54,369 bases of DNA, taken from a virus. Position 1 is the stretch's first letter. Every line of letters starts with the position of its first letter. The translations under genes were made by a program, and so were the position numbers. Shown in pieces: positions 11,188 through 53,729 of the stretch. The DNA is taken from positions 1 through 54,369 of IMG/VR virus record IMGVR_UViG_3300033148_002840. One strand, given 5' to 3'. The notes below the pieces were generated by a model. The model saw only the letters and a program-made list of their open reading frames with translations. It was not told the origin of the DNA and searched no databases.

Positions 11188-11399
11188 TGTCTCCAGACCT
11201 AAATGATCTCGACTGGAATATACTCACCGCGACCAACGACGAGAATCATCCTGCGGTCCGGGCGGACGAGACAAAGGCGATGATCTCTATCGGGAAGTTG
11301 TTTAGACTAAAGCTAGTTGAATATGGAATCAAGGGTAATTTGTTGCCGACTGAACTAGGAAAGCTCGCGTTAGCTGAAAAGGAGACCTTAGATGCCTAA
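11187..11399 (+). CDS. Small winged-helix-like protein, 70 aa
   Basis: TAATG overlap with the upstream gene. The layout is a helix (LDWNILTATND), a helix (KAMISIGKLFRLKLVEYG) and a beta-turn ending in LTELGKLAL. This resembles the C-terminal wing segments often seen in small phage regulators. The resemblance to the upstream neighbour suggests an old duplication. Confidence 0.55.
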   Translation: MSPDLNDLDWNILTATNDENHPAVRADETKAMISIGKLFRLKLVEYGIKGNLLPTELGKLALAEKETLDA

Positions 11400-17088: not shown

Positions 17089-18002
17089 TGATGTCTATTG
17101 AATTGAAGCCGTGTCCAAATCCAGAATGTAGAGAGAAGAAGCCCAATCTGCGAATCGAAGGACACGAAGATGGTATCAGGTACGTCGAGTGTCATCATTG
17201 TGGCATGACCGGGCCTTCATCCTTTGGGAATAGTTTCTCGATTGGGTTGTGGAACAACCTGCCCCGTGAAGATAGCGAGACTGATAAGATATTGGCTGAT
17301 ATGGATCGAGATATAAAGGAGGCAGCAACCGCAGCCTTTTGTCCGGGGTTTTTCTCGCCCCGCGAAGACAAGACCGAGCCTGTCAAGCCCGAGAGGAAGT
17401 GCCCGCATTGTGGAGGTAATGTTATCCGTGGCTGTAATAGCGATGCGCAGTGGTGCCAATGTACCAACTGCTTTGCAGCCAGTCCTCACTGTTATCTCCT
17501 AAATGAAGCCTACGATGCGTGGTGGGCACCATTCAGGGCGCGAGATGTCGCGCCGGTTAACAAGAAGGTTGTAGAGGATAAACAAATGGCTAACCTGAAT
17601 GGATTTGACGCGCGCACTGTGGAACCCACCGCCAATTTTGAGCCAATTCCGGCGGGCAAGTATCTGGCAGCCATCACCGCCAGCGAAATGAAAACCACTA
17701 AGAAAGGTGACGGCGGCTACCTGCAACTGGAGTTCACCGTCCTCGACGGCGACTGCAAGGGCCAAAAGGTTTGGGATCGGCTGTGCATCAATCACCCAAA
17801 CGGCCTGACGCAGAAGATCGCAAGGGGCAATCTCTCGGCGATCTGTCGGGCGGTTGGGGTGATGCAGCCTTACGACTCGGTCGAACTTCACAACCTGCCG
17901 CTGTTGATCACCGTCAAGCTCAAGAAGTGTGAGGACACCGGCGAGCTGACCAACGAGGTCAAGGGCTACGCCAAGAAAGAGACGGCCGCCAGTCAGTCGT
18001 AG
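17088..18002 (+). CDS. Two Lar-type zinc ribbons fused to a DUF669 SSB-like domain
   Basis: 304 aa. Residues 5-60 (LKPCPNPEC...CHHCGMTGP...IGLWNN) and about 104-150 (CPHCGGNV...CTNCFAAS...AYDAWW) are Lar-like ribbons. Lar-type proteins counter restriction in some systems. Residues 167-304 are a DUF669 domain (GKYLAAITASE, YLQLEFTVLDG, LCINHPNGLTQKIARGNLSAICRAVGV). The last part has clearly more G/C at third codon positions than its surroundings. An ATG at 17586 with GAGG upstream could make the DUF669 part alone. A second copy of the ribbon end lies downstream, pointing to an insertion. Confidence 0.75.
   Translation: MMSIELKPCPNPECREKKPNLRIEGHEDGIRYVECHHCGMTGPSSFGNSFSIGLWNNLPREDSETDKILADMDRDIKEAATAAFCPGFFSPREDKTEPVKPERKCPHCGGNVIRGCNSDAQWCQCTNCFAASPHCYLLNEAYDAWWAPFRARDVAPVNKKVVEDKQMANLNGFDARTVEPTANFEPIPAGKYLAAITASEMKTTKKGDGGYLQLEFTVLDGDCKGQKVWDRLCINHPNGLTQKIARGNLSAICRAVGVMQPYDSVELHNLPLLITVKLKKCEDTGELTNEVKGYAKKETAASQS
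17508..17551 (+). repeat. Gene-end repeat, copy 1 (inside Lar ribbon)
   Basis: 44 bases encoding AYDAWWAPFRARDVA. Matches 18023-18066 with five mismatches. The two copies bracket the DUF669 module. Confidence 0.85.
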
Positions 18003-18022: not shown

Positions 18023-18066
18023 GCCTACGCCGCGTGGTGGGCGCTATTCAGGGCGCGAGATGCCGC
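18023..18066 (+). repeat. Gene-end repeat, copy 2 (orphan Lar tail)
   Basis: 44 bases encoding AYAAWWALFRARDAA in an open frame that continues as WKSLERMNRKLLK and stops at the next gene's ATGA. This looks like the original C-terminus of the Lar-type gene, stranded after the DUF669 module. Confidence 0.85.
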
Positions 18067-41656: not shown

Positions 41657-41939
41657 TAGGGTCGTCCTCTAGGGTTCCTATGCTATCGCGCATTCGATTA
41701 ACGCCGGGCTCAATAGGGTCTGGAAAGATGTCGAAGTCAATTAGCGTCATAATGTCACTTTTGGCAACGCGGAGGATATCATCGGCCTCGAATAGATTGC
41801 CGCCGTCCGGGTCTTGCAGGAGGCCGCCACTTCTCGCTAGCGTCATATCGCCAAGAGTTTCCGCTAGAACGATGCCCACTGCCCATTTTGTGCGGCCGTC
41901 CGGTTGCCCGACTCTAGCCACTCGGAGTTTCATCGCCAT
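41625..41939 (-). CDS. Hypothetical protein, 104 aa
   Basis: Starts MAMKLRVARVG after AAGGAGTCAACTG. An N-terminal beta/alpha segment (RTKWAVGIVLAETLGDMTLAR) precedes an acidic C-terminus (EDDPSDDPPD). The acidic tail overlapping the terL start may help couple translation. Function unknown. Confidence 0.6.
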   Translation of the reverse strand: MAMKLRVARVGQPDGRTKWAVGIVLAETLGDMTLARSGGLLQDPDGGNLFEADDILRVAKSDIMTLIDFDIFPDPIEPGVNRMRDSIGTLEDDPSDDPPDTKSS

Positions 41940-42204
41940 CAGTTGACTCCTTACTAGTCGTACGTTTAACCGGCGAAGGGACTGTTGGCTTCCGGGATAC
42001 TGGTGGCTTCACCTTGGGGGCATCATCCTTCATCAAGCGCTCAATAGCAGCCAATACCACAATACCGGGGAGCATTAAGGCCGCAGTCCGTTCTGGCTCG
42101 GGTACATTCGGTAGTACATACTTATCTAAGAAGCGTTCGAAGCTAGTCGGCGTCAACTTCTGCGGATTCGACATCAATGATAGGAGTCTCTTCTCCAGGT
42201 CCAT
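41914..42204 (-). CDS. Hypothetical packaging-region protein, start uncertain
   Basis: From ATG 42204 this gives MDLEKRLLSLMSNPQK, then LTPTSFERFLDKYVLPNVPEPERTAALMLPGIVVLAAIERL. A hydrophobic helix (ALMLPGIVVLAAIERL) is followed by a basic Pro/Lys tail. The longer frame up to 42342 needs a GTG start and lies wholly over the neighbour. A later ATG at 42174 is also possible. None has a good Shine-Dalgarno. Confidence 0.5.
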   Translation of the reverse strand: MDLEKRLLSLMSNPQKLTPTSFERFLDKYVLPNVPEPERTAALMLPGIVVLAAIERLMKDDAPKVKPPVSRKPTVPSPVKRTTSKESTDGDETPSG

Positions 42205-42829
42205 TATCGTCTGGGCTGACTTGCCCCCCTGACCTCCCGCCAGTAGGCGGAACGAGAACCCGACTAGCCTCGACCATCCTGCTCCGAACTGACCCCGGAA
42301 GCTCTGGCGAACTAAGTCCTGTATTCGTTTGTTTTCTAACACGGGCGGTTATCTCCTTTATTTCGATTACCATATCGTCCATAGCGCGGCGTTCCCCGAC
42401 AGCGAGCCGGAGACTATCGCGCATTGCTTTGCTGCTGGACATTCCAACAGCCGCTAATTTTGTTTGATTGACTGTACGCATCGCGGCCATCGCGGAGCGT
42501 GGGTCCTCCTCCCAATTCTCGATAATGCCCTTGAGGACGCCCATCATATAGAGAGCAGAGAGTTTGTTACGTTTGCAGGCCGCTTCAATGACCAGTGGAT
42601 TGAAGGAGTTTTGGAGGCGATCAGCCGCCAGTTGCTCAAGTTTGGTAACTGCATCCGGTGGAAGGGGCTTCCCCTCTACGATGACCGCATCGTCGCCCTC
42701 GTAGGCCTCTAGCCGCTTTACGAGCTCAACTACGGCCGTGGGGTCCTTCAGCGTCACAGATGGAATGTAGAGGTTCCCAGGGGGGTCCTTGGCGATCGGA
42801 GCAATATCTATGGATTTCTTGGCTGCCAT
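42143..42829 (-). CDS. Putative terminase small subunit, 228 aa
   Basis: First gene of the virion operon. Acidic and helical, with LVIEAACKRNKLSALYMMGVLKGI, LRLAVGERRAMDDMVIEI and a disordered Ser/Gly/Asp tail. A DNA-binding N-terminal HTH is not evident. The assignment as TerS is by position only, two genes upstream of terL; it may instead be another packaging accessory. The start is ATG 42829 without a strong ribosome-binding site. Confidence 0.5.
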   Translation of the reverse strand: MAAKKSIDIAPIAKDPPGNLYIPSVTLKDPTAVVELVKRLEAYEGDDAVIVEGKPLPPDAVTKLEQLAADRLQNSFNPLVIEAACKRNKLSALYMMGVLKGIIENWEEDPRSAMAAMRTVNQTKLAAVGMSSSKAMRDSLRLAVGERRAMDDMVIEIKEITARVRKQTNTGLSSPELPGSVRSRMVEASRVLVPPTGGRSGGQVSPDDNGPGEETPIIDVESAEVDAD

Positions 42830-42942
42830 CAGTAAATCGTACCCCAAAATGCACTCGAAAGCAACTCCATTCCAGTCGTTTTATACATTACTCGCATGTC
42901 TTAAACCCCCTATAATCGTCTAAAAACGGCACCCAATTTCAG

Positions 42943-42982
42943 AAAAAAAGCCCGTAACCCCCTTCTGCTCAAGGGGTTACGC
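42943..42982 (-). terminator. Rho-independent terminator for cargo operon
   Basis: Read leftward, CGTAACCCC...GGGGTTACG is a nine-pair stem, extendable by two pairs past one bulge. GGC and seven T follow (the A-run at 42943-42949 on the plus strand). It ends transcripts coming from the sulfotransferase gene. Confidence 0.8.
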
Positions 42983-43012
42983 AAAAACAGTACTTTCCTT
43001 TTCACAAAACTA

Positions 43013-43068
43013 GGGGGGGTAGGGTAGGGCGGGCGGCCTATATACTCCCCCACTCCCCCATCCCTCCC
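43013..43068. promoter_or_regulatory. Opposed G-quadruplex motifs (possible packaging/regulatory element)
   Basis: Plus strand 43013-43033 has G-runs of 7, 3, 3 and 3 with one- or two-base loops. The C-runs at 43047-43068 (5, 5, 3, 3) give a second G4 motif on the minus strand. An AT-rich core containing TATATA lies between them. The two blocks could also fold as an imperfect hairpin. Confidence 0.6.
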
Positions 43069-43200
43069 TAATATCCTGAAAAGGATGGTGGGTGAATCGT
43101 TGTAAACACTTGTGGACACTGGAGTTATGGATTTTTAGATCATTTGCGATGGCCGTTTCTAGGCTCTGGTGGGGGGATTTCGGACTAGCTAGCATTAAAC

Positions 43201-43815
43201 TCATGGCCTCCACTCTCGGCTGTACCCAAAGGTATTGAAATCTTCGTCGCACCACTCACGGATGAGAGCGGCACGCTCCTCATTCATGTAGTGTGTCCAG
43301 GACTTTCTTGCATGAGAAGGATTCGACACGGGAACTTTAATGTCTGGCTGCCAAAATGGCAACGTTATAAGGTCCCTCTCTAGAGACTCCAAGCGCAGCG
43401 TTCTGTCGAGTTTAACATCGCGCAGCCATCGCGTTTGCGTGATCGCAAGATGTCGCCCTACAAGCATATGAGGTTTAGTCAACAAGAAGTGTAAAAACTT
43501 CGTGAAATCCGTGGTGCCTAATTCCACGTAACAATACTTCTGTTTGAGGGTCTTTGTCGGGTCTACGGTTGTTGACCACCAAAGGGAGACCGCGCGAGCA
43601 TAGGGATTCCGCACAATTGACCATGTAAAGAGGTCGCGGTACTCCTTGGGCACTACATTAGAGTGGAATGGCCTTGGGCGAGAGCCTTTTTTTAGTACCC
43701 CATTTACCAAAAAGTAGCCATCCGGGAACACCTTGGGGAGTAGCTCCCACATACTATTGGTGGCACATTTGGTCGTGGAGACGAATACGAATTTATCGTG
43801 TGGGCTAATAAACAT
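43201..43815 (-). CDS. Sulfotransferase (PAPS-dependent)
   Basis: 204 aa. The 5'-phosphosulfate loop TKCATNSM is at residues 15-22, and the 3'-phosphate motif SIVRNPYARAVSLW at 66-79. Both fit the sulfotransferase family that modifies carbohydrates. The last cargo gene before the terminator. It likely sulfates the sugar assembled by the neighbouring glycosyltransferases, using host PAPS. Confidence 0.85.
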   Translation of the reverse strand: MFISPHDKFVFVSTTKCATNSMWELLPKVFPDGYFLVNGVLKKGSRPRPFHSNVVPKEYRDLFTWSIVRNPYARAVSLWWSTTVDPTKTLKQKYCYVELGTTDFTKFLHFLLTKPHMLVGRHLAITQTRWLRDVKLDRTLRLESLERDLITLPFWQPDIKVPVSNPSHARKSWTHYMNEERAALIREWCDEDFNTFGYSREWRP

Positions 43816-43816
43816 A

Positions 43817-44395
43817 TTAGGGTCTCACAAAAAACCAGGTCATTGTCTCTGGGGGGCCGAGAAGCAGAGAACCAGGGTTGTTAGAGAGATATTTTTCTAC
43901 TGCTTGCCGGACACGCCAATTAAAGGTCTTGGCGTGTCTACGGGGGTTGTCTATATCGTGTCCACAAACCACGCCACCATGTTTTACCTTTGGAGTCCAT
44001 ACTTGAATGTCACTGAGAACTTCAGGATATTGGTGCCCGGCGTCAATAAATACGAAATCGAAGAAATCAAGGGGAAAATCTTTTGCCGCAAGTAGGGAAG
44101 GCTTTTTAACTACGGAGCGTCTATTGCTAAATGGTGATGTTTTATCTAGGGCTTCTCGGTGCACTTTATCCCACCACTTTTGTGGGCGGAACCCCTCTCG
44201 CAATTCACAATCTAATGTTTGATTGGTTTTCCACGTATCAACCATTACAAGATGTAAATTTGCAAAAGTGGTAAGGAGCCACTTGGATAATGCACCACGG
44301 TAGACGCCTATCTCAGCAGCATTTCGCACATCTTTTGGCGCCCAATTAAGGTGATCTTTGATGGCGTGCGCTACATCTTCTTGCGGCGTAGTCAT
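43817..44395 (-). CDS. Class I SAM-dependent methyltransferase
   Basis: 192 aa. AEIGVYRGALSKWL is a SAM-binding motif I (ExGxxxG), and VMVDTWK provides the acidic end of strand 2. FDFVFIDAGHQYPEVLSDIQ and HGGVVCGHD complete a fold like the Methyltransf_24 group seen in glycan clusters. It probably O-methylates sugar residues. It lies one base from the sulfotransferase gene. Confidence 0.8.
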   Translation of the reverse strand: MTTPQEDVAHAIKDHLNWAPKDVRNAAEIGVYRGALSKWLLTTFANLHLVMVDTWKTNQTLDCELREGFRPQKWWDKVHREALDKTSPFSNRRSVVKKPSLLAAKDFPLDFFDFVFIDAGHQYPEVLSDIQVWTPKVKHGGVVCGHDIDNPRRHAKTFNWRVRQAVEKYLSNNPGSLLLGPPETMTWFFVRP

Positions 44396-44397
44396 TA

Positions 44398-45723
44398 TTA
44401 TACTTTCCTCCCGCTACTGCCTTCGATGCCCCACAGGTGGACGGCATAGGGGTCTTTCTTTCCAAGCATCTCTATACGGGCGGCTTCGGGCGCTTTCCAA
44501 AAGGCCCGCGCTTTCTCACGTTCCCGCCAGGACCACGGATAAAAATAACTCCACGGTAGGATGCGCATATCACTATCGCCGTTTTCTGTAAAGAGTCCAG
44601 TTAGCATACTTGGTCCGAAGCGTGTGCGAGGGCGGCGCTCCGTCTCCGGCGTTATCTTCGGTATTCTGGCAAGGCACCGCATGAACGCATTACTGTGGCG
44701 AATAGCACCCATACACCCATTGGTTAGCTTCTTAGAGCCCTCGTGGAGTGTAGTCCAGGCAGGTCCCTTCTTGCGCAGCGGATCAAAACTTTTACGTGTT
44801 ATAAGATCAGTATTGAGGGTGACACCACCATAATGATAGAGTAGCCAACAGTATAAGATATCGGCGCGTTGACAAAGTTGTTCACAACTAGACCATGCGG
44901 GGACCAAATCATCCTGAAATGTTGGGGGGCGCCCCGTCCACAGATTGATCTTCCAACGAGGATTATGCGCTCGAAAGGCGTCCATAATACCTTGAAGCCA
45001 ATTGGGTTTAGGCCCCAACCACACAAAGTGCGCGATCCGTGGTATAATGTTGGGTAAATCGGCGTCCTGAACGTACGTGTAGTCAATGTCTAATAGTTTG
45101 CACTCTTCTTCTTGCAGGTTGCGGAGTTCTGGAAAGATACCTTGCCCTCGACCACTGGATAGTATGGACAATCGGGGATCATAGGGACTTCCTAGTTTAG
45201 AAGGAGTGTTTCCGTCGCACCCAATGTACACGATCTCGGAGGCGCCACAAATCCACGCGAAATGTGTGGCTAGATGACACACGCTTCCGGCCTTATATAA
45301 TGACCCGGACACAGCCGCTTCCTCTCTAGAGAGTTTGAGTAGACTTTTATCCTTGTATCCACTCCAATCATATCCAACGATTGTGCCATGTTCAGTGGGA
45401 TTGAGGTCCCGCGCGAAGATACGACCTCGATTGTGAATGTGTTCGATGCCTGCTGGCGGGTTCTTGGTCGGTCCCTGGGGTAAGACAAGTGTACTCGTTC
45501 TATTCGATGTGAGGAGCACCTTCATGGATTTGTGGGCCGTTACCAAGAAAGTCTCAATGGATTTAGTCACCTTATCTTCTAGGAGGACAGCATCATTCAA
45601 GAAGATGATGGGGTCCGTTATCTTCGTTAGGTTCTCATAGTCGTAGGGGGTAATGCCCTTACCCACAATTATGAATCGGTAACCAGCGTACTTATTGAGA
45701 TAATCTTTGAGAGTTAGCATCAT
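44398..45723 (-). CDS. DUF115-like domain fused to a GT32-type glycosyltransferase
   Basis: 441 aa. Residues 1-224 are a DUF115-like Rossmann domain (YRFIIVGKGITPYDY, ASEIVYIGCDG). Residues 225-441 are a sugar-transferase domain (IAHFVWLGPKPNW, ADILYCWLLYHYGG). The DxD metal motif reads NTD at 304-306 in VTLNTDLI, so its first Asp is replaced by Asn, although the second is kept. Fusion of these two domains is not a common phage architecture. The start is 45723 or 45720. Confidence 0.75.
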   Translation of the reverse strand: MMLTLKDYLNKYAGYRFIIVGKGITPYDYENLTKITDPIIFLNDAVLLEDKVTKSIETFLVTAHKSMKVLLTSNRTSTLVLPQGPTKNPPAGIEHIHNRGRIFARDLNPTEHGTIVGYDWSGYKDKSLLKLSREEAAVSGSLYKAGSVCHLATHFAWICGASEIVYIGCDGNTPSKLGSPYDPRLSILSSGRGQGIFPELRNLQEEECKLLDIDYTYVQDADLPNIIPRIAHFVWLGPKPNWLQGIMDAFRAHNPRWKINLWTGRPPTFQDDLVPAWSSCEQLCQRADILYCWLLYHYGGVTLNTDLITRKSFDPLRKKGPAWTTLHEGSKKLTNGCMGAIRHSNAFMRCLARIPKITPETERRPRTRFGPSMLTGLFTENGDSDMRILPWSYFYPWSWREREKARAFWKAPEAARIEMLGKKDPYAVHLWGIEGSSGRKV

Positions 45724-46388
45724 TCACTCGCTCTTGGGGCGCCAACTTCACGAAAAGTCTTAAATAGGTGCAGCCCAAATGGGGGAACCCCATCTACCCA
45801 CTTGGATTTAGTGCTATCTAGAAGGATTTTGCGCTCCGTTAGGGATGCTTTCCAAAACTTCCTACAGTCTTCAGGCTCCGGTAAAACATTGAAATAGTGT
45901 GCGGGGAGAAGCTCCATCATTCCATGAGAGCAGCAGTAGTGTACTAGCCGGGCACCCCTCCCTGTATGGTGTTTGGATAGTTGCTCCTCACGCTTCATGT
46001 AGACATCAACCAAGAATCTGAAGGCCGCGCATCCCTGTTGCCCACCTAAGACGCCATTATAACAGGCGTTCTTAGTTTGATGCCAGGCATAGGTAAACGC
46101 CGTGTACTTCAATAGCGGGTTGAATGATCGGAAGGTTATCACATCGGAGTCAACATAGACGCCGCCGTAAGTCGAAAGCAACCAATATCGTATTATGTTA
46201 CTCTTCTTTGAGAAGATGGGGTTTTCATCACACCGACAGCGGAGGGCCGTTGGGAACCTGTCAGGAACGTCCTCCCACAATTTTACTTCCCAATCGGGGT
46301 GAAATTGTCGAAAGGTCTCCATGTTCGCGGTCGCCCATGCAGGGGGTGGCGACCCCAACCAGATGAAGTGACATAGTTTTGGGATCAT
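45720..46388 (-). CDS. GT32-type glycosyltransferase, 222 aa
   Basis: MIPKLCHFIWLGSPPPAW at the start and NIIRYWLLSTYGGVYVDSDV, with an intact DxD motif (DSD at 80-82), define a sugar-nucleotide-dependent transferase. The sequence is related to the C-terminal half of the next gene, so the two probably act in turn or on different linkages. Starts at MIPKL rather than the upstream ATG-less frame. Confidence 0.85.
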   Translation of the reverse strand: MIPKLCHFIWLGSPPPAWATANMETFRQFHPDWEVKLWEDVPDRFPTALRCRCDENPIFSKKSNIIRYWLLSTYGGVYVDSDVITFRSFNPLLKYTAFTYAWHQTKNACYNGVLGGQQGCAAFRFLVDVYMKREEQLSKHHTGRGARLVHYCCSHGMMELLPAHYFNVLPEPEDCRKFWKASLTERKILLDSTKSKWVDGVPPFGLHLFKTFREVGAPRASE

Positions 46389-46389
46389 T

Positions 46390-46668
46390 CTAAGGGTCCC
46401 CACTCTCGGTTGGCTCCTCCTGAATTATACCCTCTCGTAAGAGATAGTAGTAGAACGCTTCCAAGAGACACGATGGCGACCAACTTGCCAGGTGGGGTGC
46501 CGTCAATTCGCAGCCATGTAGCGCCATTGGTTCACCGGAGGCGATCTTTCGTAGGAAGTCTTCCCAGTGTTTGGGCATCTGTGCTCCTCCAAGGTCATCG
46601 ACGTTACTGTTCGTTATGGTACCATTCTGACTACCTAAAATTCTAGGCAACAGTGGCTTAACCCGCAT
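46390..46668 (-). CDS. Hypothetical cargo-operon protein, 92 aa
   Basis: The start is the ATG after GGAGATAACATA. A helical C-terminus (HLASWSPSCLLEAFYYYLLREGII) follows an N-terminal basic stretch. No catalytic motif. It lies directly upstream of the first glycosyltransferase gene. Confidence 0.55.
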   Translation of the reverse strand: MRVKPLLPRILGSQNGTITNSNVDDLGGAQMPKHWEDFLRKIASGEPMALHGCELTAPHLASWSPSCLLEAFYYYLLREGIIQEEPTESGDP

Positions 46669-46685
46669 TATGTTATCTCCAGGCA

Positions 46686-46949
46686 TTAGCAAGCGGCGTG
46701 CTCCAGGGGCTCATACAGCGTGAGGAAGTCACGTTCCTTGACTATCGAGCGATAGCCATCCTGATCGGCCACAATCCAATCCCCAGGTTGAATTGGAATT
46801 GGCATAACGATATGGTCAACATTATCGGATATGAGTCTGTAGACCGTTCCCGCAAGAGCACTTCGGTCCTCTAAGACACCAGAGATTCCCCTACCAGGCT
46901 GAAACTGTACTGCACTAACTACCTCTCGACTTCGGAACTTGGCCATCAT
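46686..46949 (-). CDS. Small phage-type protein, 87 aa
   Basis: VVSAVQFQPG...IPIQPGDWIVADQDGYRSIVKERDFLTLYEP is a compact beta unit common among tailed-phage proteins of unknown role. The start follows AAGGAGCCTA. A likely paralogue lies at 39078-39362. Confidence 0.65.
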   Translation of the reverse strand: MMAKFRSREVVSAVQFQPGRGISGVLEDRSALAGTVYRLISDNVDHIVMPIPIQPGDWIVADQDGYRSIVKERDFLTLYEPLEHAAC

Positions 46950-46964
46950 TAGGCTCCTTTAAGT

Positions 46965-47003
46965 TCAAGGTATCTCCAAGCGCAACGTACTCAATACGTT
47001 CAT
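46965..47003 (-). pseudogene. Orphan second copy of protease 3' end
   Basis: ATG overlapping the upstream stop (ATGA) opens a 12-residue frame MNVLSTLRLEIP that ends in TGA. Its last residues equal the end of the protease (LNVLGALRLEIP). At the DNA level, 46969-47000 matches 47351-47382 in 29 of 32 bases. Confidence 0.75.
46969..47000. repeat. Gene-end repeat copy 2 (protease)
   Basis: 32 bases matching 47351-47382 at 29 positions. The copies flank the gene 47000-47347. Confidence 0.85.
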
Positions 47004-47347
47004 ACTTCTACAACCATAAGATTGTACTTTTCCGTTGGCACTGATGGCTTAAAGTTTGGGTACAACGCCCGCACGTCAAAACAATGCTTGGTAAACTTAA
47101 CTGGGTACTTTTTCAACAGCCACCGAGGAAACCAGCGGTCCTTAAAAGCCTGCCACCAATCAGATGGGTGCGATATAGATAGAGCGTCTACCCGTTCGCC
47201 CCAGACGAACCCACGAACCTGCGCAATGATGTCACCTGCTGCGTGTTCCAGGAAGGTGGCCTCCGTCTCACATAGATAACGATCGAGTCTTTGGCTGAGT
47301 CCAACACAAAATTTCTCCAGGCGGACTGTTCTGAAATCGGAATTCAT
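47000..47347 (-). CDS. Hypothetical protein flanked by repeats, 115 aa
   Basis: MNSDFRTVRLEKF...LCETEATFLEHAAGDIIAQVRGFVWGERVDAL, then SDWWQAFKDRWFPRWLLKKYPV. An N-terminal helix and a Trp/Arg-rich block near residues 65-80 are clear. The gene lies between the protease end and an orphan copy of that end, so it looks inserted. The stop/start overlap with the protease is TAATG. No known function. Confidence 0.65.
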   Translation of the reverse strand: MNSDFRTVRLEKFCVGLSQRLDRYLCETEATFLEHAAGDIIAQVRGFVWGERVDALSISHPSDWWQAFKDRWFPRWLLKKYPVKFTKHCFDVRALYPNFKPSVPTEKYNLMVVEV

Positions 47348-48408
47348 TATGGTATCTCCAAGCGCAACGCACCTAATACGTTGAGCGCCGTGTTTGCGAT
47401 CGTTATCTGTTCGGAGCCAGCAAACAACAGGCCAACGAGCGTTGCGCGGCCGTGATCGCTACCTATTGTTACGATTGCACTACCGGAATCGCCGCCCTGA
47501 CTCATAGCGCTCAGTAGAATCTGGTCCTCGAAGGTTGCAATCTTTCCACTACCGTAGTTGACCTTGACGGTAGCTCCCGTGTACTGTACGACGCCGGTTG
47601 TGGTTTCCGTGGTGCGACCCCTCTTGTATACTATATCGCCTGGGAACGCGGGTGCAAAGTCATCTATTGGTGACCAGCCCGTTCCAACAAATTCATCGGT
47701 GATATCATCGAGTTTTGTGGGCATTGCATAGGCGGCGTCTACTAGATTTACGTCGCTTCTAATCGAGGTAGCAATGAGACGAGTTTTGCGGCCCGTAGCC
47801 CACAATACGAGATTCATAACCTTGGTAGCAGCCTTAACAACGGGGCATTTATTAGGCTCCTCACTGAATGATATCGGAATGTACCCGTGTAGCGTTCCAA
47901 TTCTACTAAACGCGGCGAAACCACCATCCGCAGGTCCGGGCTGCAAAATGGCGTCCCCGATCTTGGCGGCATTACTATTGGCTAAGACATGGTTATTGGA
48001 GACAATGACGGGGACTTTTGTGCCCCCCGGGCGCGCAACGAATCCGAACGTCCCGGCTGTAATGTCCTTGTGTCCGATACTCACCCCTGGGAATGCCGGT
48101 CGATGTCGCTTCTTGAGATTAACTGCTTTTGGGGACGCGCTGAGCGCCCAAATGTCACCAACTTCGACGACATCCGTTCTATATGGATGCAGTTTAAGTC
48201 CGCACTCCAATGAGACTTGCGTTGGGATCATTGTCTCCGTGGTTAGCGCACTAGGCGGCAGCTTCTTACGTACAAAGAATACTACAGCTTGTATACTGGT
48301 GGGACGACCACCGCGCTTCTTAGTACCCTTGGCGACCCCTACGATATTGGAGTCGGTCAGGAGTTTACGAATGGTGGCGCTTTTTGCGAATTGGGAATCG
48401 GACTTCAT
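47347..48408 (-). CDS. Chymotrypsin-fold serine protease, 353 aa
   Basis: SNNHVLAN (His140), NLVDAAYA (Asp224) and GGDSGSAIV (Ser308) give the classic triad order of S1-type trypsin-like peptidases. The ordered beta segments around them (VPVIVSNNHVLA, TTGVVQYTGATVKVNYG) fit the double beta-barrel. An N-terminal 100-residue extension lacks a signal peptide. A phage-encoded S1 protease could process virion or host proteins. The leader carries four 8-bp repeats. Confidence 0.85.
   Translation of the reverse strand: MKSDSQFAKSATIRKLLTDSNIVGVAKGTKKRGGRPTSIQAVVFFVRKKLPPSALTTETMIPTQVSLECGLKLHPYRTDVVEVGDIWALSASPKAVNLKKRHRPAFPGVSIGHKDITAGTFGFVARPGGTKVPVIVSNNHVLANSNAAKIGDAILQPGPADGGFAAFSRIGTLHGYIPISFSEEPNKCPVVKAATKVMNLVLWATGRKTRLIATSIRSDVNLVDAAYAMPTKLDDITDEFVGTGWSPIDDFAPAFPGDIVYKRGRTTETTTGVVQYTGATVKVNYGSGKIATFEDQILLSAMSQGGDSGSAIVTIGSDHGRATLVGLLFAGSEQITIANTALNVLGALRLEIP
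47351..47382. repeat. Gene-end repeat copy 1 (protease)
   Basis: 32 bases in the last codons of the protease, repeated 382 bases downstream at 46969-47000. Confidence 0.85.
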
Positions 48409-48422
48409 ATCGTGGTCTCCTC

Positions 48423-48454
48423 TAGTGCTCTAGTGCTCTAGTGCTCTAGTGCTA
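48423..48454. repeat. Four tandem 8-bp repeats in protease leader
   Basis: TAGTGCTC repeated three times plus TAGTGCTA. On the minus strand they lie 15 bases upstream of the protease start, between a TATATA-like box and the ribosome-binding site. Confidence 0.9.
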
Positions 48455-48533
48455 TATATGCCTAAGACCTGCCACTCACTGCCATCATCTCTATTACCGC
48501 TCGTTACAGGGTAGACACTCTTGGGTTTAGGCA

Positions 48534-48734
48534 TTAGGCACCGTCCCTTACACGCTGTAGGAGGTCTATCCTGCCAATGGTCTTGCCACACTTCACGCAA
48601 TAGTAAGCATCATGGTATGGCACCGGCTCCAAACGACCACCACAAACTGAAGCCACTGCCCGACACCGAGGAAGATCACCCTCGCCCGCATCCAGGCGAG
48701 CCTGCGCCTCCAAATATGTCATCTTCTTGGCCAT
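48534..48734 (-). CDS. Zinc-ribbon protein, 66 aa
   Basis: MAKKMTYLEAQARLDAGEGD, then a single CVKCG knuckle late in the protein and an earlier VCGGRL near residue 30 as the other ligand set. The gene overlaps the end of its upstream neighbour by 59 bp. Function unknown. Confidence 0.55.
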   Translation of the reverse strand: MAKKMTYLEAQARLDAGEGDLPRCRAVASVCGGRLEPVPYHDAYYCVKCGKTIGRIDLLQRVRDGA

Positions 48735-49005
48735 GAGTTTCCTCGCAGAACTCTTTTGTTTGATTTATGAAGTCTTCCCAATTCTTTCCACATTCTGGGC
48801 ATCCACCAATCGACTGCATATATTTTGTTGAGAAGATCGTCCCGCACATCGCACACTGGACGACGCCTCTCCTGATTCGTGTGGGACTAAAACGAAGGGG
48901 TGCTCCAGATTGCCGTGCATTTAGGTCGATCTCCACGATAATGTCGCTTTGGTACCCTATTTTAGGCTCTAAACCCCAAATTGTCAACGCAAAAAGCGGC
49001 CCCAT
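48676..49005 (-). CDS. Zinc-ribbon protein, first gene of leftward cargo operon
   Basis: The longest frame gives 109 aa with CAMCGTIF...GGCPECGKNW, a clear zinc ribbon at residues 51-75, and an acidic/Gly-rich tail. A leftward promoter with its -10 at 48959-48964 lies inside the frame. The true start may therefore be downstream, for instance a GTG near 48936, with no visible ribosome-binding site. Confidence 0.6.
   Translation of the reverse strand: MGPLFALTIWGLEPKIGYQSDIIVEIDLNARQSGAPLRFSPTRIRRGVVQCAMCGTIFSTKYMQSIGGCPECGKNWEDFINQTKEFCEETHGQEDDIFGGAGSPGCGRG
48959..48987 (-). promoter_or_regulatory. Leftward sigma70-type promoter of cargo operon
   Basis: Minus strand TTGACA (plus 48982-48987), 17-base spacer, TAAAAT (plus 48959-48964). 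Predicted start near 48952. Confidence 0.65.
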
Positions 49006-49106
49006 TTACTCATTAGGAATCAATTACTAATCGGCCAGAATTTAGTATTTTGCTGTTTTTGGCTACTAGTGGGCACTTTTCACTTCAATCGTCACATGGC
49101 CACAAT

Positions 49107-49159
49107 AAAAAACCTGCCCTTGATGCGCGTCACCCTTGTAGGGGAGAGGCGCGGCAGGT
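49107..49159 (-). terminator. Leftward hairpin with T-run (terminator or attenuator)
   Basis: On the minus strand ACCTGCC (plus 49153-49159) pairs with GGCAGGT (plus 49112-49118), with a GCGC pairing inside. A run of T follows (A-run at plus 49107-49112). Confidence 0.6.
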
Positions 49160-49254
49160 GTGTTACTATCTTTATACGGTGCAGAAGGCCCGCGGTCAAC
49201 AGGAATATCGGAAAAAGTCCCAAGTTTTAGTAAAATTCTTGGTGTTTGCCGGTC

Positions 49255-49280
49255 TGGCCTAAAATTCAGGCCACTTTTTT
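49255..49280 (+). terminator. Rightward rho-independent terminator
   Basis: TGGCCT, loop AAAATTC, AGGCCA, then CTTTTTT. It ends rightward transcription before the early promoter. Confidence 0.65.
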
Positions 49281-49422
49281 GTGAAATTTTGGGGGCCCGG
49301 CAAAAAATACAGGGGCGTCGAATGGGGCGAGAGGTGATAAATCTCTACTATCGGCAAAACGTTATGGGCCTGTACCCCCCACCGTTTGTCGCATTATGCA
49401 CCCGATGCACATTGGACACCGC

Positions 49423-49546
49423 ATGTCGGGAACCAGCCCCCGTTGTGCACACCGCACACCCCAGGACAGCCCATGTCGGGAATCTTGCCCACGGTTGGTA
49501 ATCATTCCGACACTGCATGTCGTGTATGGTAGGGGGCCGACGACAT
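49423..49546. repeat. ATGTCGGGAA motif cluster
   Basis: ATGTCGGGAA at 49423 and 49473, exactly 50 bases apart and embedded in longer similar blocks. An inverted TTCCGACA is at 49505, ATGTCG at 49517, and the complement CGACAT at 49541. Confidence 0.6.
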
Positions 49547-49687
49547 CCAACATCCGGCATCTACCCGCCGCCAGGTATCCGGGCGACAAACAGACTCCGA
49601 TATCCACCAGTCGGACCTAACAACTATCTAACTCGTCGATCATAAGTGCCTAGTGGGTAAGGGTTTACAATTATTCTTGAGATTACC

Positions 49688-49716
49688 TTGACAACCGGCG
49701 AATCATGTTGTAGGCT
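49688..49716 (+). promoter_or_regulatory. Rightward early promoter
   Basis: TTGACA (49688-49693), 17-base spacer, TAGGCT (49711-49716). The first gene starts at 49766. Confidence 0.6.
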
Positions 49717-49765
49717 TAGAGTGTTCATTGACAACAACATACACTAACGCAAAGGGGTAATGATT

Positions 49766-49864
49766 ATGGACACAGAAGAAGTGACAGTATCCGACGACCT
49801 GGTTGACGAGCTCGGCGATATACTCACGGCGCCAGCCGATCAAAATGACGATAATACGGTGTGA
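49766..49864 (+). CDS. Acidic microprotein, 32 aa
   Basis: The ATG follows AAAGGGGTAATGATT. A very acidic product (TEEVTVSDDLVDELGDIL, DQNDDN) with one amphipathic helix. First gene after the promoter. DNA mimicry or inhibition of a host protein would fit such charge, but nothing supports a specific target. Confidence 0.55.
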   Translation: MDTEEVTVSDDLVDELGDILTAPADQNDDNTV

Positions 49865-49880
49865 ACATCCGTTGTGCGGG

Positions 49881-49966
49881 AGTGCCTAGCACCTATCCAC
49901 CAGCTCCAAACGGCCCCGGAGTTGGAGTAGGCGGGCGAAAGACGGGTTCGATTCCTGTCGGGCACT
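49881..49966 (+). tRNA. tRNA-like or decayed tRNA element
   Basis: The 3' part is convincing. The T arm ACGGG/CCTGT encloses TTCGATT (49942-49958), and GGGCACT pairs with AGTGCCT at the 5' end (one G-T). The middle does not form a normal anticodon arm: CTCCAA/TTGGAG leaves a 12-base loop. It may be a tRNA mimic, a decayed tRNA, or an attachment-site-like fragment. Confidence 0.3.
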
Positions 49967-50025
49967 ATGACGATAAAAAGAACATAAATCCTTATGAGAT
50001 GGGCACTTACGAGCGCTGTAAAAAG

Positions 50026-50041
50026 TGACAGATGTCTGTCA
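50026..50041. promoter_or_regulatory. Operator-like palindrome O1
   Basis: TGACAGATGTCTGTCA, seven-base arms with a TG centre, perfect. First of three sites spaced 22 bp. Confidence 0.75.
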
Positions 50042-50044
50042 GAA

Positions 50045-50073
50045 TTGTGACAGGAATCTCCCAAAATTATGAC
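50045..50073 (+). promoter_or_regulatory. Promoter inside the operator cluster
   Basis: TTGTGA (50045-50050), 17 bases, TATGAC (50068-50073). The -35 overlaps O2 and the -10 overlaps O3, so a bound repressor would block it. Confidence 0.45.
50048..50063. promoter_or_regulatory. Operator-like palindrome O2 (degenerate)
   Basis: TGACAGGAATCTCCCA. It keeps the left half and five of seven bases of the right half of the O1/O3 consensus, exactly 22 bp after O1. Confidence 0.6.
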
Positions 50074-50085
50074 GGATTTCCGTCA
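50070..50085. promoter_or_regulatory. Operator-like palindrome O3
   Basis: TGACGGATTTCCGTCA, perfect seven-base arms. 22 bp after O2 and 44 bp after O1. Confidence 0.75.
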
Positions 50086-50152
50086 CTTGTAAACCCTTGT
50101 GCGACAGGGGGTTAGGACAGTGTGGAAATGTTTACACAGAGGGGCACGACCA

Positions 50153-50404
50153 ATGATCTATGCAGAGCTATTATCAAAACCCGGCGGTTTGCCAGTAAGG
50201 GGCAGCGAGACCGTTTTCCTAAACATGGCAGAACTGGCCGCAGCCGACGAACGGCAACGACAGTGTGGCAAGTGCTATTCTGGCGCCCTGGCCACCAATA
50301 TTGCCTTAAACCGACACCGACACAACCGTTGCATGTGGTGCGGGGCGAAAGTGGGGAGCGACCACGTTGATTGCCAAGTTGGGCGAATCAGTAACACAGC
50401 CTAG
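50153..50404 (+). CDS. Zinc-ribbon protein, 83 aa
   Basis: The start follows AGAGGGGCACGACCA. CGKCYSG and CMWCGAK form the ribbon at residues 38-62; the N-terminal part is helical. First full gene behind the operator cluster, so probably the most tightly controlled early gene. Possibly a DNA-binding early regulator. Confidence 0.6.
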   Translation: MIYAELLSKPGGLPVRGSETVFLNMAELAAADERQRQCGKCYSGALATNIALNRHRHNRCMWCGAKVGSDHVDCQVGRISNTA

Positions 50405-50419
50405 CCGGATAGACGTAAC

Positions 50420-50440
50420 GCCTGCGCATAGGGTGCAGGC
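50420..50440. other. Intergenic hairpin
   Basis: GCCTGCGC, loop ATAGG, GTGCAGGC (one G-T). Lies 20 bases before the ATG at 50461. Confidence 0.5.
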
Positions 50441-50460
50441 TAACGAATAAGGGGCGAATT

Positions 50461-50778
50461 ATGCAAACATACCACAATCTACAGACACCAATCCCATTAG
50501 GCTACGACGGACCGCTATCTGTGCGCGACGTAAAGCGATGGCTACAGCATGGTCCCACCGCTTGGCCCGGTGGCGACCCACTATTTTTCATAACCAGTGA
50601 TGGCGCCGCCCTAGCGTTTTCGACAGTTCGGGCAGAATGGCCACTAATATGTTCGGCGATTCGAGACAACCGCCCGGACGGTTGGCAGGTAGTAGCTGTC
50701 GCTGTGAATTATGAGGACGGCGCCCTGTTTGATGCGCACACCGAGCAACGTATTGAGTGCGCGTATGGCGCTGACTAA
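50461..50778 (+). CDS. Hypothetical protein, 105 aa
   Basis: The start follows AAGGGGCGAATT. LSVRDVKRWLQHGPTAW precedes a beta-rich segment (LFFITSDGAALAFS) and WQVVAVAVNYEDGALFD. No known motif; soluble and compact. Confidence 0.6.
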   Translation: MQTYHNLQTPIPLGYDGPLSVRDVKRWLQHGPTAWPGGDPLFFITSDGAALAFSTVRAEWPLICSAIRDNRPDGWQVVAVAVNYEDGALFDAHTEQRIECAYGAD

Positions 50779-50794
50779 CATAAGGAGCTGAATT

Positions 50795-51091
50795 ATGAGC
50801 ACGAAACAAAATGCTCTAGCGTATACCATTGTCGACGGCGTGGTGCGGCAGGTTCGCGTCAGCAGCAACGGCAACCTAGTCGATGCCTGCGAGCCCAGCC
50901 GATGCTACGCACTAGCACGATGCCGTCTGCACAGCCAGCCGTGGCCGCCAATATATCCCACCGCAGACGCCGCAGACGCCGTACAGGACGCTGTAATTGC
51001 TGCCTGTACGCATGACTGGCGCGTGCTAAGCCATGAAGAGATAGAATGTCGCATCTGCAAAACAGTGCGGCTCATCCCGGATGTAGATTGA
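50795..51091 (+). CDS. Hypothetical Cys-containing protein, 98 aa
   Basis: AAGGAGCTGAATT precedes the start. The protein has many Cys (DACEPSRCYALARCRLH, ECRICKTVRL). The C-terminal CxxC with an earlier ACTH could hold a metal. The middle is Ala/Asp-rich. Unknown function. Confidence 0.6.
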   Translation: MSTKQNALAYTIVDGVVRQVRVSSNGNLVDACEPSRCYALARCRLHSQPWPPIYPTADAADAVQDAVIAACTHDWRVLSHEEIECRICKTVRLIPDVD

Positions 51092-51129
51092 CAACATTAA
51101 CCCTAGCCCGGCTAGGCGGAGGATTGCAC

Positions 51130-51333
51130 ATGATAGGAGCTAGACCGATGCGATTAGGAAACACAGCAAGGGCGCGATTGTTGTACTCGGACGGGCGGAT
51201 TGAACACTACACTGACCAGCGGTTATGCCTGGCGGTGTGGTACGCCTTGCCCAAAGGGATACGGGCTGCGTTCCGGGGCGCTGGTGACACCCAGCCCGTT
51301 TACCCTTGGGATTGTGTGGATAGACTCCCGTAA
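51130..51333 (+). CDS. Hypothetical basic protein, 67 aa
   Basis: GGAGGATTGCAC precedes ATG 51130. An alternative ATG at 51148 follows AGGAGCTAGACCG. RLLYSDGRIEHYTDQRLCLAVWY suggests a small beta sheet. A 15-base palindrome (CCTAGCCCGGCTAGG) lies 20 bases upstream. Confidence 0.55.
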   Translation: MIGARPMRLGNTARARLLYSDGRIEHYTDQRLCLAVWYALPKGIRAAFRGAGDTQPVYPWDCVDRLP

Positions 51334-51362
51334 TGGTGCGGGTGTGAATAAGGGGCGAAATA

Positions 51363-51593
51363 ATGATTACACTAGGGTTGATGGTGCGTGACCGGCAGAC
51401 TGGTGAAACCTTCCATATCGGGAATAACCCGCCGAGAAAATGGTTGTTGCGGCACTTTTGCCGACAGCACGCGACTAAAATCTACCGATATACTAAAGAC
51501 GGACGGCGTCGGCACATTGGGTATATCATCGCAGGGCGGTGGTTGGATGTCTTTCGGGTATGCTCATGGAAAGAACCAGAAGGGGTGAAATAA
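51363..51593 (+). CDS. Hypothetical basic protein, 76 aa
   Basis: ATG after AAGGGGCGAAATA. Strongly basic (NPPRKWLLRHFCRQHATK, DGRRRHIGYIIAGRW). A helix followed by a beta hairpin might bind nucleic acid. One-base overlap with the next gene. Confidence 0.6.
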   Translation: MITLGLMVRDRQTGETFHIGNNPPRKWLLRHFCRQHATKIYRYTKDGRRRHIGYIIAGRWLDVFRVCSWKEPEGVK

Positions 51594-51778
51594 TGTCGAC
51601 ATTAGGTGACGCTAACGCAGCTAGTGAAGACGCAGTAGGTCTAATGGATTGGTTGGCTGATAACCCAAATGCGTTTACTCCTGTGGATCACCGCAAGGCA
51701 ATTACTGCCCTCTGTCTGGTGTACGACGCCGCAATGGCTATCGTTGATGCGGAGTACAAAGAGCTTGGAGAACAATAA
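51593..51778 (+). CDS. Hypothetical acidic helical protein, 61 aa
   Basis: The start follows AAGGGGTGAAATA. The product is mostly one helical hairpin (DHRKAITALCLVYDAAMAIVDAEYKEL). Function unknown. Confidence 0.6.
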   Translation: MSTLGDANAASEDAVGLMDWLADNPNAFTPVDHRKAITALCLVYDAAMAIVDAEYKELGEQ

Positions 51779-51779
51779 C

Positions 51780-52157
51780 ATGATAACGTATAGCGAGTTT
51801 CAACCCACTGTGTTCGATTCAAAGGGCGCATTTTTGCCCGATCGACAGGACTGGATAGTAGTGCTGGCCGGTCGCACACGAGACAGCGGGGCGCTAGAGC
51901 AATCTAATTTCGCCACGGCGCTAAAACGGTTGGGGGGTGAATCCAATAGTGTTGAGGTGCATCGGTTTGATCATTGGACGGTTGGTTGGTTAGAGATTAT
52001 TCTCGTTGAGAGGGGATCGGATCAGGTGCACATTGCGGACGCTATTGAGGACGCGCTAGCTGATTACCCTGTGCTTGACGATGACGACTATGCAGACCGC
52101 CAAGCAGAGGAACTTCAGGAGCAATCAGACTATGAAAACTGTCCAACTACATCTTGA
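51780..52157 (+). CDS. Conserved phage-type protein, 125 aa
   Basis: QDWIVVLAGRTRD...EVHRFDHWTVGWLEIILVERGSDQVHIADAIEDALADYPVLDDDDYADRQ is a compact alpha/beta unit that recurs in phages and plasmids with unknown function. The start is ATG 51780, overlapping by one base. A long acidic tail follows. Confidence 0.65.
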   Translation: MITYSEFQPTVFDSKGAFLPDRQDWIVVLAGRTRDSGALEQSNFATALKRLGGESNSVEVHRFDHWTVGWLEIILVERGSDQVHIADAIEDALADYPVLDDDDYADRQAEELQEQSDYENCPTTS

Positions 52158-52338
52158 CGAACAAGACACGCTTGACTTGATTGCGGACCTAAAGGGTGCA
52201 CTCAAGCTGGCGAGGCGGAGTGCGGCCCATCGGACGGTCTGGCGACAAGGTAAAGATGGGCGAGTTTTCATGTATGTTGATGTTCCGCTTGTGGATTGTA
52301 TTGATTGCTGTCTAAAGGAGGATTCAAGTTATGGGTAA
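52132..52338 (+). CDS. Hypothetical protein, 68 aa
   Basis: Starts inside the preceding gene after CAGGAGCAATCAGACT. KTVQLHLDEQDTLDLIADLKGALKLARRSA is followed by a beta end with a CIDCC motif. The Cys pair may bind metal. No family. Confidence 0.55.
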   Translation: MKTVQLHLDEQDTLDLIADLKGALKLARRSAAHRTVWRQGKDGRVFMYVDVPLVDCIDCCLKEDSSYG

Positions 52339-52516
52339 ACAAGAGGATTTCAATCAGGCGGAAAGCATCCTGTTTAACTTTGTCAAGGTGGTGCAAGCCG
52401 CTGGTGGACGTTCCGAGCTAGAAACTGTCTGGCCGGAATTGCTGCCTGTGTACAATGATGCTTTTGGCTTAATGATGGTAGCTGCCATGCAAAAAGATGC
52501 CCAGGAAAAGGCATAG
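52331..52516 (+). CDS. Hypothetical helical protein, 61 aa
   Basis: ATG after AAAGGAGGATTCAAGTT. ILFNFVKVVQAAGG and FGLMMVAAMQKDA are its helices. Small, soluble. Unknown. Confidence 0.6.
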   Translation: MGKQEDFNQAESILFNFVKVVQAAGGRSELETVWPELLPVYNDAFGLMMVAAMQKDAQEKA

Positions 52517-52529
52517 TGTGGTGTTGTCT

Positions 52530-52579
52530 GTCGGGCGGCGCCCCGGTGTAACGCCCCTTGCATCGGGGTTGCTCCCGAC
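52530..52579. other. Structured intergenic RNA hairpin
   Basis: GTCGGG/CCCGAC outer stem and CCCCGGTG/CATCGGGG inner stem (8 pairs, one G-T), joined by an internal loop. Lies 40 bases before the ATG at 52619. Could be a leader regulator or a simple processing element. Confidence 0.5.
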
Positions 52580-52618
52580 TGGATGAATTGGAATCTAGGG
52601 GCAAAAGGGGTATAAACT

Positions 52619-52894
52619 ATGGCGATAGAACCGGAACCTTATTTGTGGATGCAGGAGAATGAAGTCAGTGCACAGGCGGAGTGTGGTTGCGAGCTACACT
52701 TTCTCCGGGGTCCAATGGATGCGGCTTATTTCCAGTGCCCGCTGCACGCCGCTGCCCCGGACCTGCTGGCGGCGTGCGAACACTTCGAGGCAGTCTATGG
52801 GCCTGACCGAACATTCTACGAAATGCAACAGACAATGAAGATGATCCATGAGGCCATTGCTAAGGCCAAGGGGGTGAAAGCATGTTCGGAGTAG
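52619..52894 (+). CDS. Conserved phage-type protein, 91 aa
   Basis: AAGGGGTATAAACT precedes the start. The segment CPLHAAAPDLLAACEHFEAVYG is a recurrent stretch of tailed-phage accessory proteins. CGCELHFLRG and the CPLHAA His/Cys set may bind metal. Role unknown. Confidence 0.65.
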   Translation: MAIEPEPYLWMQENEVSAQAECGCELHFLRGPMDAAYFQCPLHAAAPDLLAACEHFEAVYGPDRTFYEMQQTMKMIHEAIAKAKGVKACSE

Positions 52895-53088
52895 CAACAA
52901 AGCGGCAGTTAGTGGGGCGAAAGCACGTGGCGAATACGGCGTGGCGTTACTGGACACGGGGGCGCGGGGTGTTGTGTCCCGTCTGTGAACATGAGTTTCC
53001 GGATCGGGCCGGTGCAATGCGTTGCCTAATGAGCCATGATCCGGAGCTACAAGCGATGTTCGGGGAATTGTTGGCTATGAGGAGATAG
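52882..53088 (+). CDS. Zinc-binding protein, 68 aa
   Basis: CPVCEHEFPDRAGAMRCLMSH is a C2H2-like zinc finger (CxxC ... H). The N-terminal half is basic (ATKRQLVGRKH). A DNA- or RNA-binding microprotein is plausible. The start follows AAGGGGGTGAAAGC. Confidence 0.65.
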   Translation: MFGVATKRQLVGRKHVANTAWRYWTRGRGVLCPVCEHEFPDRAGAMRCLMSHDPELQAMFGELLAMRR

Positions 53089-53092
53089 TCGA

Positions 53093-53260
53093 ATGAGTAA
53101 GGAACTACCATTCATTAGAATTGAAGTGCGGGACGGCGTTGCGGAAGTTGTTACTAAGACCGAGGGCGTTGAGTTGGAACTAGCGGACTATGATAGTCAC
53201 CCCGATGTTCTCTCGACTTTTGACGTGTATGACGTTGTTGTTGAGGGCCGCAGCCCATAA
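53093..53260 (+). CDS. Acidic small protein, 55 aa
   Basis: ATG after GAGGAGATAGTCGA. Acidic, beta-type product (FIRIEVRDGVAEVVTKTEG, STFDVYDVVVEG). No family recognised. Confidence 0.6.
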   Translation: MSKELPFIRIEVRDGVAEVVTKTEGVELELADYDSHPDVLSTFDVYDVVVEGRSP

Positions 53261-53361
53261 CGGTTTTGAAAAAATCTCGTTGCCTTTGTGGGTATGGGTG
53301 CCTAAAATTAAGAAACCGCAAGGACCAAAATCGAGATGCGACCATTATCTACAGGAAATCT

Positions 53362-53655
53362 ATGGCCATCGTTAGGCATGATATTCAGACCACGCAGGGT
53401 TGGCGGGTCGTTCGCGCGAGACCCATCGGGCAGAGCTTCTTTGCGTATGTGCCCAAAGAGCGTCGCTACAGAAAACTGCGGTGGGCACTTTCGCACCGGG
53501 GAACGGGGCTATTAGTGGGGCCGTATCTTAGGACACTAAAGGCGTGCCGATTGAAGGTGGCGGCCTTGGAGAAAACCGAGGTGAACTGGATGACGTTGAC
53601 GGCGCCCAAAATTGAGGTCGCTGAGACAACACAACGGGTAATAGACGCGCCCTAA
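53362..53655 (+). CDS. Hypothetical basic protein, 97 aa
   Basis: The ATG at 53362 after CAGGAAATCT is preferred to a TTG-started extension. TQGWRVVRARPIGQSFFAYVP has the same opening shape as the GWKVVAR and GYKVVTR units of the join-spanning gene, so a distant relation is possible. The remaining part is basic and beta-rich. Confidence 0.55.
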   Translation: MAIVRHDIQTTQGWRVVRARPIGQSFFAYVPKERRYRKLRWALSHRGTGLLVGPYLRTLKACRLKVAALEKTEVNWMTLTAPKIEVAETTQRVIDAP

Positions 53656-53667
53656 AAGGAGTTAGAT

Positions 53668-53688
53668 ATGAGAGCATTGGCGTGTTGA
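53668..53688 (+). CDS. Six-codon leader-peptide-like ORF
   Basis: AAAAGGAGTTAGAT precedes ATG AGA GCA TTG GCG TGT TGA (MRALAC). It has a better ribosome-binding site than many real genes, but it is very short. It could be a leader peptide upstream of 53730 or the remnant of a lost gene. Confidence 0.3.
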   Translation: MRALAC

Positions 53689-53729
53689 TTCTACGGAGTA
53701 GCTTCCAACGGTGAATGGAGAAGGTAGCC

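Follow-up and report, generated by a model that had tools for sequence, protein, structure and literature searches.

A small gene bracketed by an imperfectly duplicated protease gene end in a viral genome: a probable scar of recombination between phage lineages

The window, the whole stretch of viral DNA analysed here (54,369 bases), was found to carry a small gene, designated X, between the 3'-end of a protease gene and an imperfect second copy of that end. The repeat is probably the scar of a mosaic recombination between phage lineages that share the protease gene and differ downstream of it. A preliminary description of the locus had proposed gene gain by a repeated mechanism that inserts a cassette at gene 3'-ends and rebuilds them. 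The bracketed gene is real, and recombination best explains how X was gained, but a dedicated repeated mechanism was not supported, and a known recombination signature, already described in other phages, takes the place of the proposed new mobile mechanism.

The protease gene end, its copy and gene X

On the minus strand, positions 47351-47382 (copy 1) and 46969-47000 (copy 2) are identical at 29 of 32 bases, and both copies read in the protease frame up to a stop. The repeat and the stranded mini-frame are as first described, with the correction that copy 1 stops short of the end of the protease gene (47347), omitting the final four bases (A TAA), and so takes up 32 of the last 36. The placement of X exactly between the copies was likewise confirmed: it starts 4 bases past copy 1, its start overlapping the protease stop in TAATG, and copy 2 begins at the final base of the X stop codon TGA (47000). 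The features of the locus are:

47347..48408, minus strand: target gene, encoding a NAL1-like trypsin-fold serine protease of 353 aa (phrog_20754, weak Pfam matches)
47351..47382, minus strand: repeat copy 1, the protease 3'-end encoding NVLGALRLEIP (then TAA), including the GGAG that precedes the start of X
47000..47347, minus strand: gene X, 115 aa, presumed incoming gene (PHROG match to phrog_26218, a family of unknown function)
46969..47000, minus strand: repeat copy 2, the stranded protease end encoding NVLSTLRLEIP, then TGA
46965..47003, minus strand: 12-codon mini-frame MNVLSTLRLEIP and stop, ATG to TGA, holding copy 2, its ATG overlapping the X stop
46686..46949, minus strand: next gene downstream, 87 aa (weak matches to phrog_6363 and phrog_419), with its own AAAGGAG upstream

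A genome-wide self-comparison gave the pair an E value of 4.5e-4 and ranked it fourth among direct repeats, leaving aside the end repeat formed by the identical first and last 114 bases of the window. An end repeat of this kind usually denotes a complete genome. Dinucleotide shuffling of the 2 kb that follow the protease gene, repeated 1000 times, gave a best match of 22/32 and a mean of 17. The 19-base core of the repeat, CGTTGCGCTTGGAGATACC, occurs twice in the window with up to 3 mismatches allowed, and no exact match to it was found in the viral_contigs database, which may omit records very near the window. A role as a common regulatory element or as a widespread attachment core is therefore unlikely.

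The protease matched phrog_20754 (protease) at 6.1e-48 and, weakly and under their cut-offs, the Pfam families NAL1_N, Nal1_C and Trypsin_2. Its relatives came from 71 viral loci, at least 80 bacterial or archaeal loci and 6 phage or plasmid records (157 hits examined), and 146 of them were testable, their gene end being complete and followed by at least 500 bases. Among the matches listed, none of these 146 carries a copy of its own 3'-end downstream, the best reaching 22/32. The relatives listed are at most 47% identical to the window protease (36-46% for the bacterial loci, at least 80 in number) and are therefore unfit to serve as an empty site. No relative was found with protease and X in this order and lacking copy 2, or with the protease joined straight to the downstream gene at high identity.

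Alignment up to the stop was possible for 156 of the 157 relatives, in which V-F-S-A-L are the residues most often seen at the end where the two copies differ. Serine occurs in 51 of the 156 at the position where the copies have G or S, and alanine in 75 and threonine in 7 where they have A or T. The window sequences VLGAL (copy 1) and VLSTL (copy 2) are each one residue away from a VLSAL-like ancestor, and as each copy keeps one commonest residue, their shared ancestor was probably VLSAL. Departures of one residue in both copies would be expected for two lineages, or for drift on both sides; judged by its residues, the pair would not indicate a useless copy decaying away from an unchanged functional one.

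Gene X gave no Pfam match at E values up to 0.1, and no integrase, transposase, homing nuclease or recombinase domain was recognised in it using Pfam and PHROGs; its AlphaFold2 model had a mean pLDDT of 54.9, too poor to judge the fold. Relatives of X are present in 16 viral loci, most of which carry a motif close to SYPxDWWQAFKxRWFP. Within the DNA available for each locus, X had no match in the 71 viral protease loci and the protease had none in the 16 X loci, and the neighbours of the X relatives differ across the five loci with gene lists (L002, L003, L005, L006 and L084). X is a gene independent of its neighbours, with separate relatives in other viruses. A scan of bacterial genomes for X confirmed 0 of 18 candidates, and no similarity was detected between X and its downstream neighbour (46686-46949), which leaves paralogy of the two unsupported. 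A simple scan of 46850-47500, with the sigma-70 consensus only, returned no promoter-like and no terminator-like site.

One X relative, in L092 (2391-2762), lies directly before a frame reading TFTLRPYQLDAEAA. In L002 (8787-8992), the start of the TFTLRPYQLDAEAA gene is doubled, 155 bases apart, behind an extra small gene. By our reading, the doubled start would be a start-type scar and L092 its insert-free relative.

Megablast of positions 40000-54369 against phage records gave no match, protein-pattern scans of viral_contigs with the protease and with the terminase confirmed no relative, and terminase matches in phage records were all below 60% identity. The genome also contains tandem paralogues (3095-3382 and 3511-3837), and by eye the region 2866-4072 is a set of mirrored paralogues in the order zinc-finger-like gene, gene A, small gene, copy of gene A, copy of the zinc-finger-like gene. 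Just upstream of the protease start, a perfect 8-base tandem repeat, CTCTAGTG, is present in 4.2 copies at 48420-48453. Downstream of the protease region (43204-46403) lie two glycosyltransferase-like genes, one of them under cut-off, a methyltransferase gene and a sulfotransferase-like gene.

The Lar/DUF669 locus and surveys of boundary repeats

The preliminary description had assigned the same mechanism to a second bracketed gene of this genome, at a locus with these features:

17508..17551, plus strand: repeat copy 1, within the Lar-like reading frame, 39/44 identical to 18023-18066
17586..18002, plus strand: DUF669/SSB gene between the Lar repeats, 138 aa (PF05037 at 2e-18, phrog_6015, tail comparison)
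18023..18066, plus strand: repeat copy 2 of Lar, from which the old Lar tail runs on to a TGA at 18107-18109

Here the Lar-like frame (17088 onward) reads into the DUF669/SSB gene and the old Lar tail is left behind. The target end was thus stranded and not rebuilt, which does not fit a mechanism common to both loci. The two repeats are also unlike each other, the best 12-mer match between them being 8 against a shuffle average of 8.1, and their lengths 44 and 32 bases.

All 81 DUF669 relatives are at least 149 aa long, compared with 138 aa in the window, and the best 20 of the 81 carry a C-terminal PPW or APW tail (typically NTPPWKR) that is missing in the window copy. For the SSB of phage HK620, Hutinet et al. 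2018 (PMC5928155) report that cooperation with Sak4 depends on the final six residues. To judge from the DNA, the DUF669 join was probably made between CCGCCGTGG of the relatives and GCCGCGTGG of Lar, apparently at a microhomology, which is short, and the ~25 bases ahead of the join are poorly conserved. A Sak4-like annealing protein is encoded in 57 of the 81 DUF669 loci, always at most 523 bases upstream of DUF669, and was not found in the other 24, some of which are short contigs. In the window the Sak4-like protein is encoded at 11392-12255, 5.3 kb from the DUF669 gene, and no family match was obtained for the gene that follows it immediately (12248-12694). As the window DUF669 gene is short, has no tail and lies 5.3 kb from Sak4, it appears to be displaced, and its right join illegitimate. 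After the stranded Lar tail, a short frame at 18106-18309 matches DNA methyltransferases (phrog_67), and another at 18290-18466 looks by eye like a further DNA methyltransferase part (DPFSGSGTT).

Direct repeats were surveyed in 151 non-redundant records (1.50 Mb, window included), 27 of 178 loci having been dropped beforehand as redundant. The 46 pairs over threshold were classed by eye for the 11 displayed pairs and from the table for the other 35 (21 inside one ORF), the latter including those of L106 and L142 and a perfect 26-base pair in L026 (385-410 / 2239-2264). By our own reading, end-type repeats are those of the window protease, L026 and L070, with L077 added from protein comparison, and start-type repeats those of L002, L024, L030 and L051. 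The pairs of L033 (palindromic) and L101 (low complexity) were discarded after reading. Among the non-redundant X loci, no listed pair brackets X besides that of the window. The same search of bacterial loci gave 35 pairs in 0.49 Mb, which are unclassified and hence do not serve as a control.

The presence of boundary repeats at gene starts in the 1.5 Mb of records speaks against a specificity for 3'-ends. At the protein level (89 records, score at least 38), copies were not more frequent for gene ends (8/1037) than for interior segments (14/1971), and no 3'-end bias was seen. At the DNA level (94 records, at least 25/32 within 2 kb), copies were found downstream for 2/878 ends (window protease and L070), upstream for 0/878 ends, upstream for 4/878 starts and for 1/2634 interior segments. 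These counts are small, come from a greedy and crude ORF caller and include paralogues, the L084 start hit beside X representing two paralogous genes. There is thus a slight excess at both kinds of boundary, and not at 3'-ends alone, which leaves the odds of the readings weighed below unchanged. As boundary repeats occur on both sides of genes, selection among random joins fits better than an element targeting 3'-ends.

Two further end-type loci are described here for their anatomy. In L070 (6664-7789), three consecutive small genes end in nearly identical ARELLG-coding sequence, just before the next start. In L077 (6600-7140), a gene resembling, by eye, a tyrosine recombinase gene ends in PAQLMEVR, and this end recurs after a 146-aa gene, the same anatomy as in the window.

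Origin of the repeat

One direct parallel was found in the literature searched (Pope et al. 2011), most subscription journals lying outside the search, and earlier general descriptions of such scars may exist. The relevant passages of Pope et al. 2011 (PMC3029335) state that in Island3 the last residues of gene 68 duplicate those of gene 67, with no homologues of gp68 reported there at the time, and that in LRRHood a 1.35 kb insert lies between 29-base repeats from the end of gene 42, given in these passages as absent from phages outside subcluster C1. On re-examination, the repeats at the ends of Island3 genes 67 and 68 were identical at 57 of 65 bases. The 5' part of gene 68 shares 203 contiguous identical bases with phage Malithi (Fishburnevirus), in which the inserted gene comes after the homologue of Island3 gene 67. 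Brujita has one repeat copy and no insert, and is 97.1% identical to Island3 at the end of gene 67 and 96.6% from copy 2 onward. Copy 2 of Island3 is marginally nearer to the gene-67 end of Malithi (59/65, with 46 of the first 50 bases) than to that of Brujita (57/65, with 44 of 50), so the recipient there was not simply Brujita. The pattern is that of entry through a shared gene and exit by a join inside a second copy of the gene 3'-end. A source lineage for the Island3 inserted gene can now be named, Malithi and its relatives supplying gp68 homologues. In LRRHood, the repeat at the end of gene 42 is identical at 29/29 bases, and Salacia has a single copy without insert.

At the window locus, incoming DNA with the order protease-X would have entered through homologous recombination, within the protease gene or at its end. 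Its exit at the end of X would have been an illegitimate, nearly homology-free join to the protease 3'-end of the other lineage, just upstream of the stop. The resulting order is that of the protease gene, X, the stranded protease end and the gene downstream; had the join fallen beyond the stop, a gene would have been cut. It is proposed that the two copies differ because they stem from two diverged lineages, or through later drift, and that the product survives because the target retains its full 3'-end and both neighbours retain a ribosome-binding site. The mirror event, the joining of a segment with protease end and downstream DNA after X, would leave the same, indistinguishable trace. For Island3, the sequence pattern itself shows a donor-like relative, entry through the shared gene and illegitimate exit. 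For the window itself we infer donor, direction and selection, and as the repeat core has no exact match in viral_contigs, no donor is named. The Sak4-like protein of the window is a plausible agent of the recombination. De Paepe et al. 2014 (PMC3945230) describe recombination of diverged sequences by phage annealing proteins, and Hutinet et al. 2018 (PMC5928155) the annealing of single strands by Sak4 together with its SSB.

X could instead have been inserted into a single ancestral protease end at a staggered or overlapping break, closed by non-homologous joining with duplication of the 32 bases, which would then have drifted by point mutation. The geometry would be identical to that of a recombination scar, and such an event is in keeping both with the 29/29 repeats of LRRHood, which the passages of Pope et al. 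2011 (PMC3029335) place in subcluster C1 only, and with window copies that are each one residue off a VLSAL-like ancestor. However, the Island3 copies match different lineages and not one decayed original, and the ~10% divergence of both window repeats is equally consistent with divergence of lineages; we regard this origin as rather unlikely. The repeat might also be the relic of a tandem duplication, in which X once had a second protease gene behind it, of which deletion spared only the last codons. Tandem paralogues do exist in this genome, but the self-comparison shows no further protease match between the copies, X has independent relatives in other viruses and is unrelated to the next gene, and X had no match in any of the 71 viral protease loci, all of which makes such a relic very improbable.

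The site-specific insertion of X, or of its vector, in gene ends that are rebuilt in the process, in the manner of integrase/attB systems or homing endonucleases, would account for the exact fit of X between the copies and for a second bracketed gene in the same genome, and end copies are indeed somewhat commoner than interior ones at the DNA level (2/878 against 1/2634), though start copies are commoner still (4/878). It is nevertheless hard to credit for an insert in which no integrase, transposase, homing nuclease or recombinase domain was recognised, with copies that are not identical, two repeats unrelated in sequence and length (29/32 and 39/44), a core without exact match in viral_contigs, a Lar end that is not rebuilt and boundary repeats of the start type; the repeated end-rebuilding mechanism of the preliminary description is not supported on these grounds. 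Chance, or a conserved regulatory or ribosome-binding sequence, has next to no probability: a GGAG does precede X within copy 1 and a second start has CTGGAGATAACATAATG (46666-46682), but shuffles reach 22/32 at most, the match is in frame up to the stop, and even with 3 mismatches allowed the window holds the 19-base core no more than twice.

Starting from the preferred reading, a recombination scar, a broader rule may be ventured tentatively. In packed operons a new gene might be kept only if the join overlaps, so that two copies exist of both the stop upstream and the ribosome-binding site downstream. On this view gene gain would have left a widespread, readable record in imperfect end duplications, each copy marking one parent lineage, and clean loss of the gene would be possible by recombination between the copies.

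Comparison with known systems

Transposon insertion was rejected for the window, no inverted repeat of at least 16 bases having been found at the insert ends and the duplications, 32 and 44 bases, not being constant. Integrase-borne elements that recombine into gene 3'-ends leave a copy of the gene end on either side of their insert. The window locus differs from these in that no integrase was recognised, the repeat is imperfect and no recurring core was found. Morons are single genes located between phage genes that bring their own promoter and terminator. X is similarly one accessory gene between two phage genes, but it overlaps the protease stop and has no promoter- or terminator-like site by the simple sigma-70 scan.

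Genes 43-46 of LRRHood resemble the window insert in being flanked by a short direct repeat from the extreme 3'-end of the upstream gene, and differ in that the repeat is identical (29/29) and the insert, of 1.35 kb, holds four genes. Island3 gene 68 is, like X, a small inserted gene between the 3'-end of the upstream gene and an imperfect copy of that end. It ends in frame inside copy 2, whereas X has its own stop, and donor-like and insert-free relatives were found for Island3, whereas the window locus had no near relative in the searches. Island3 shows that scars of this kind can be resolved to the point of naming a source lineage, and should the overlap rule hold generally, duplicated gene ends would serve as markers of gene gain in individual phage genomes.
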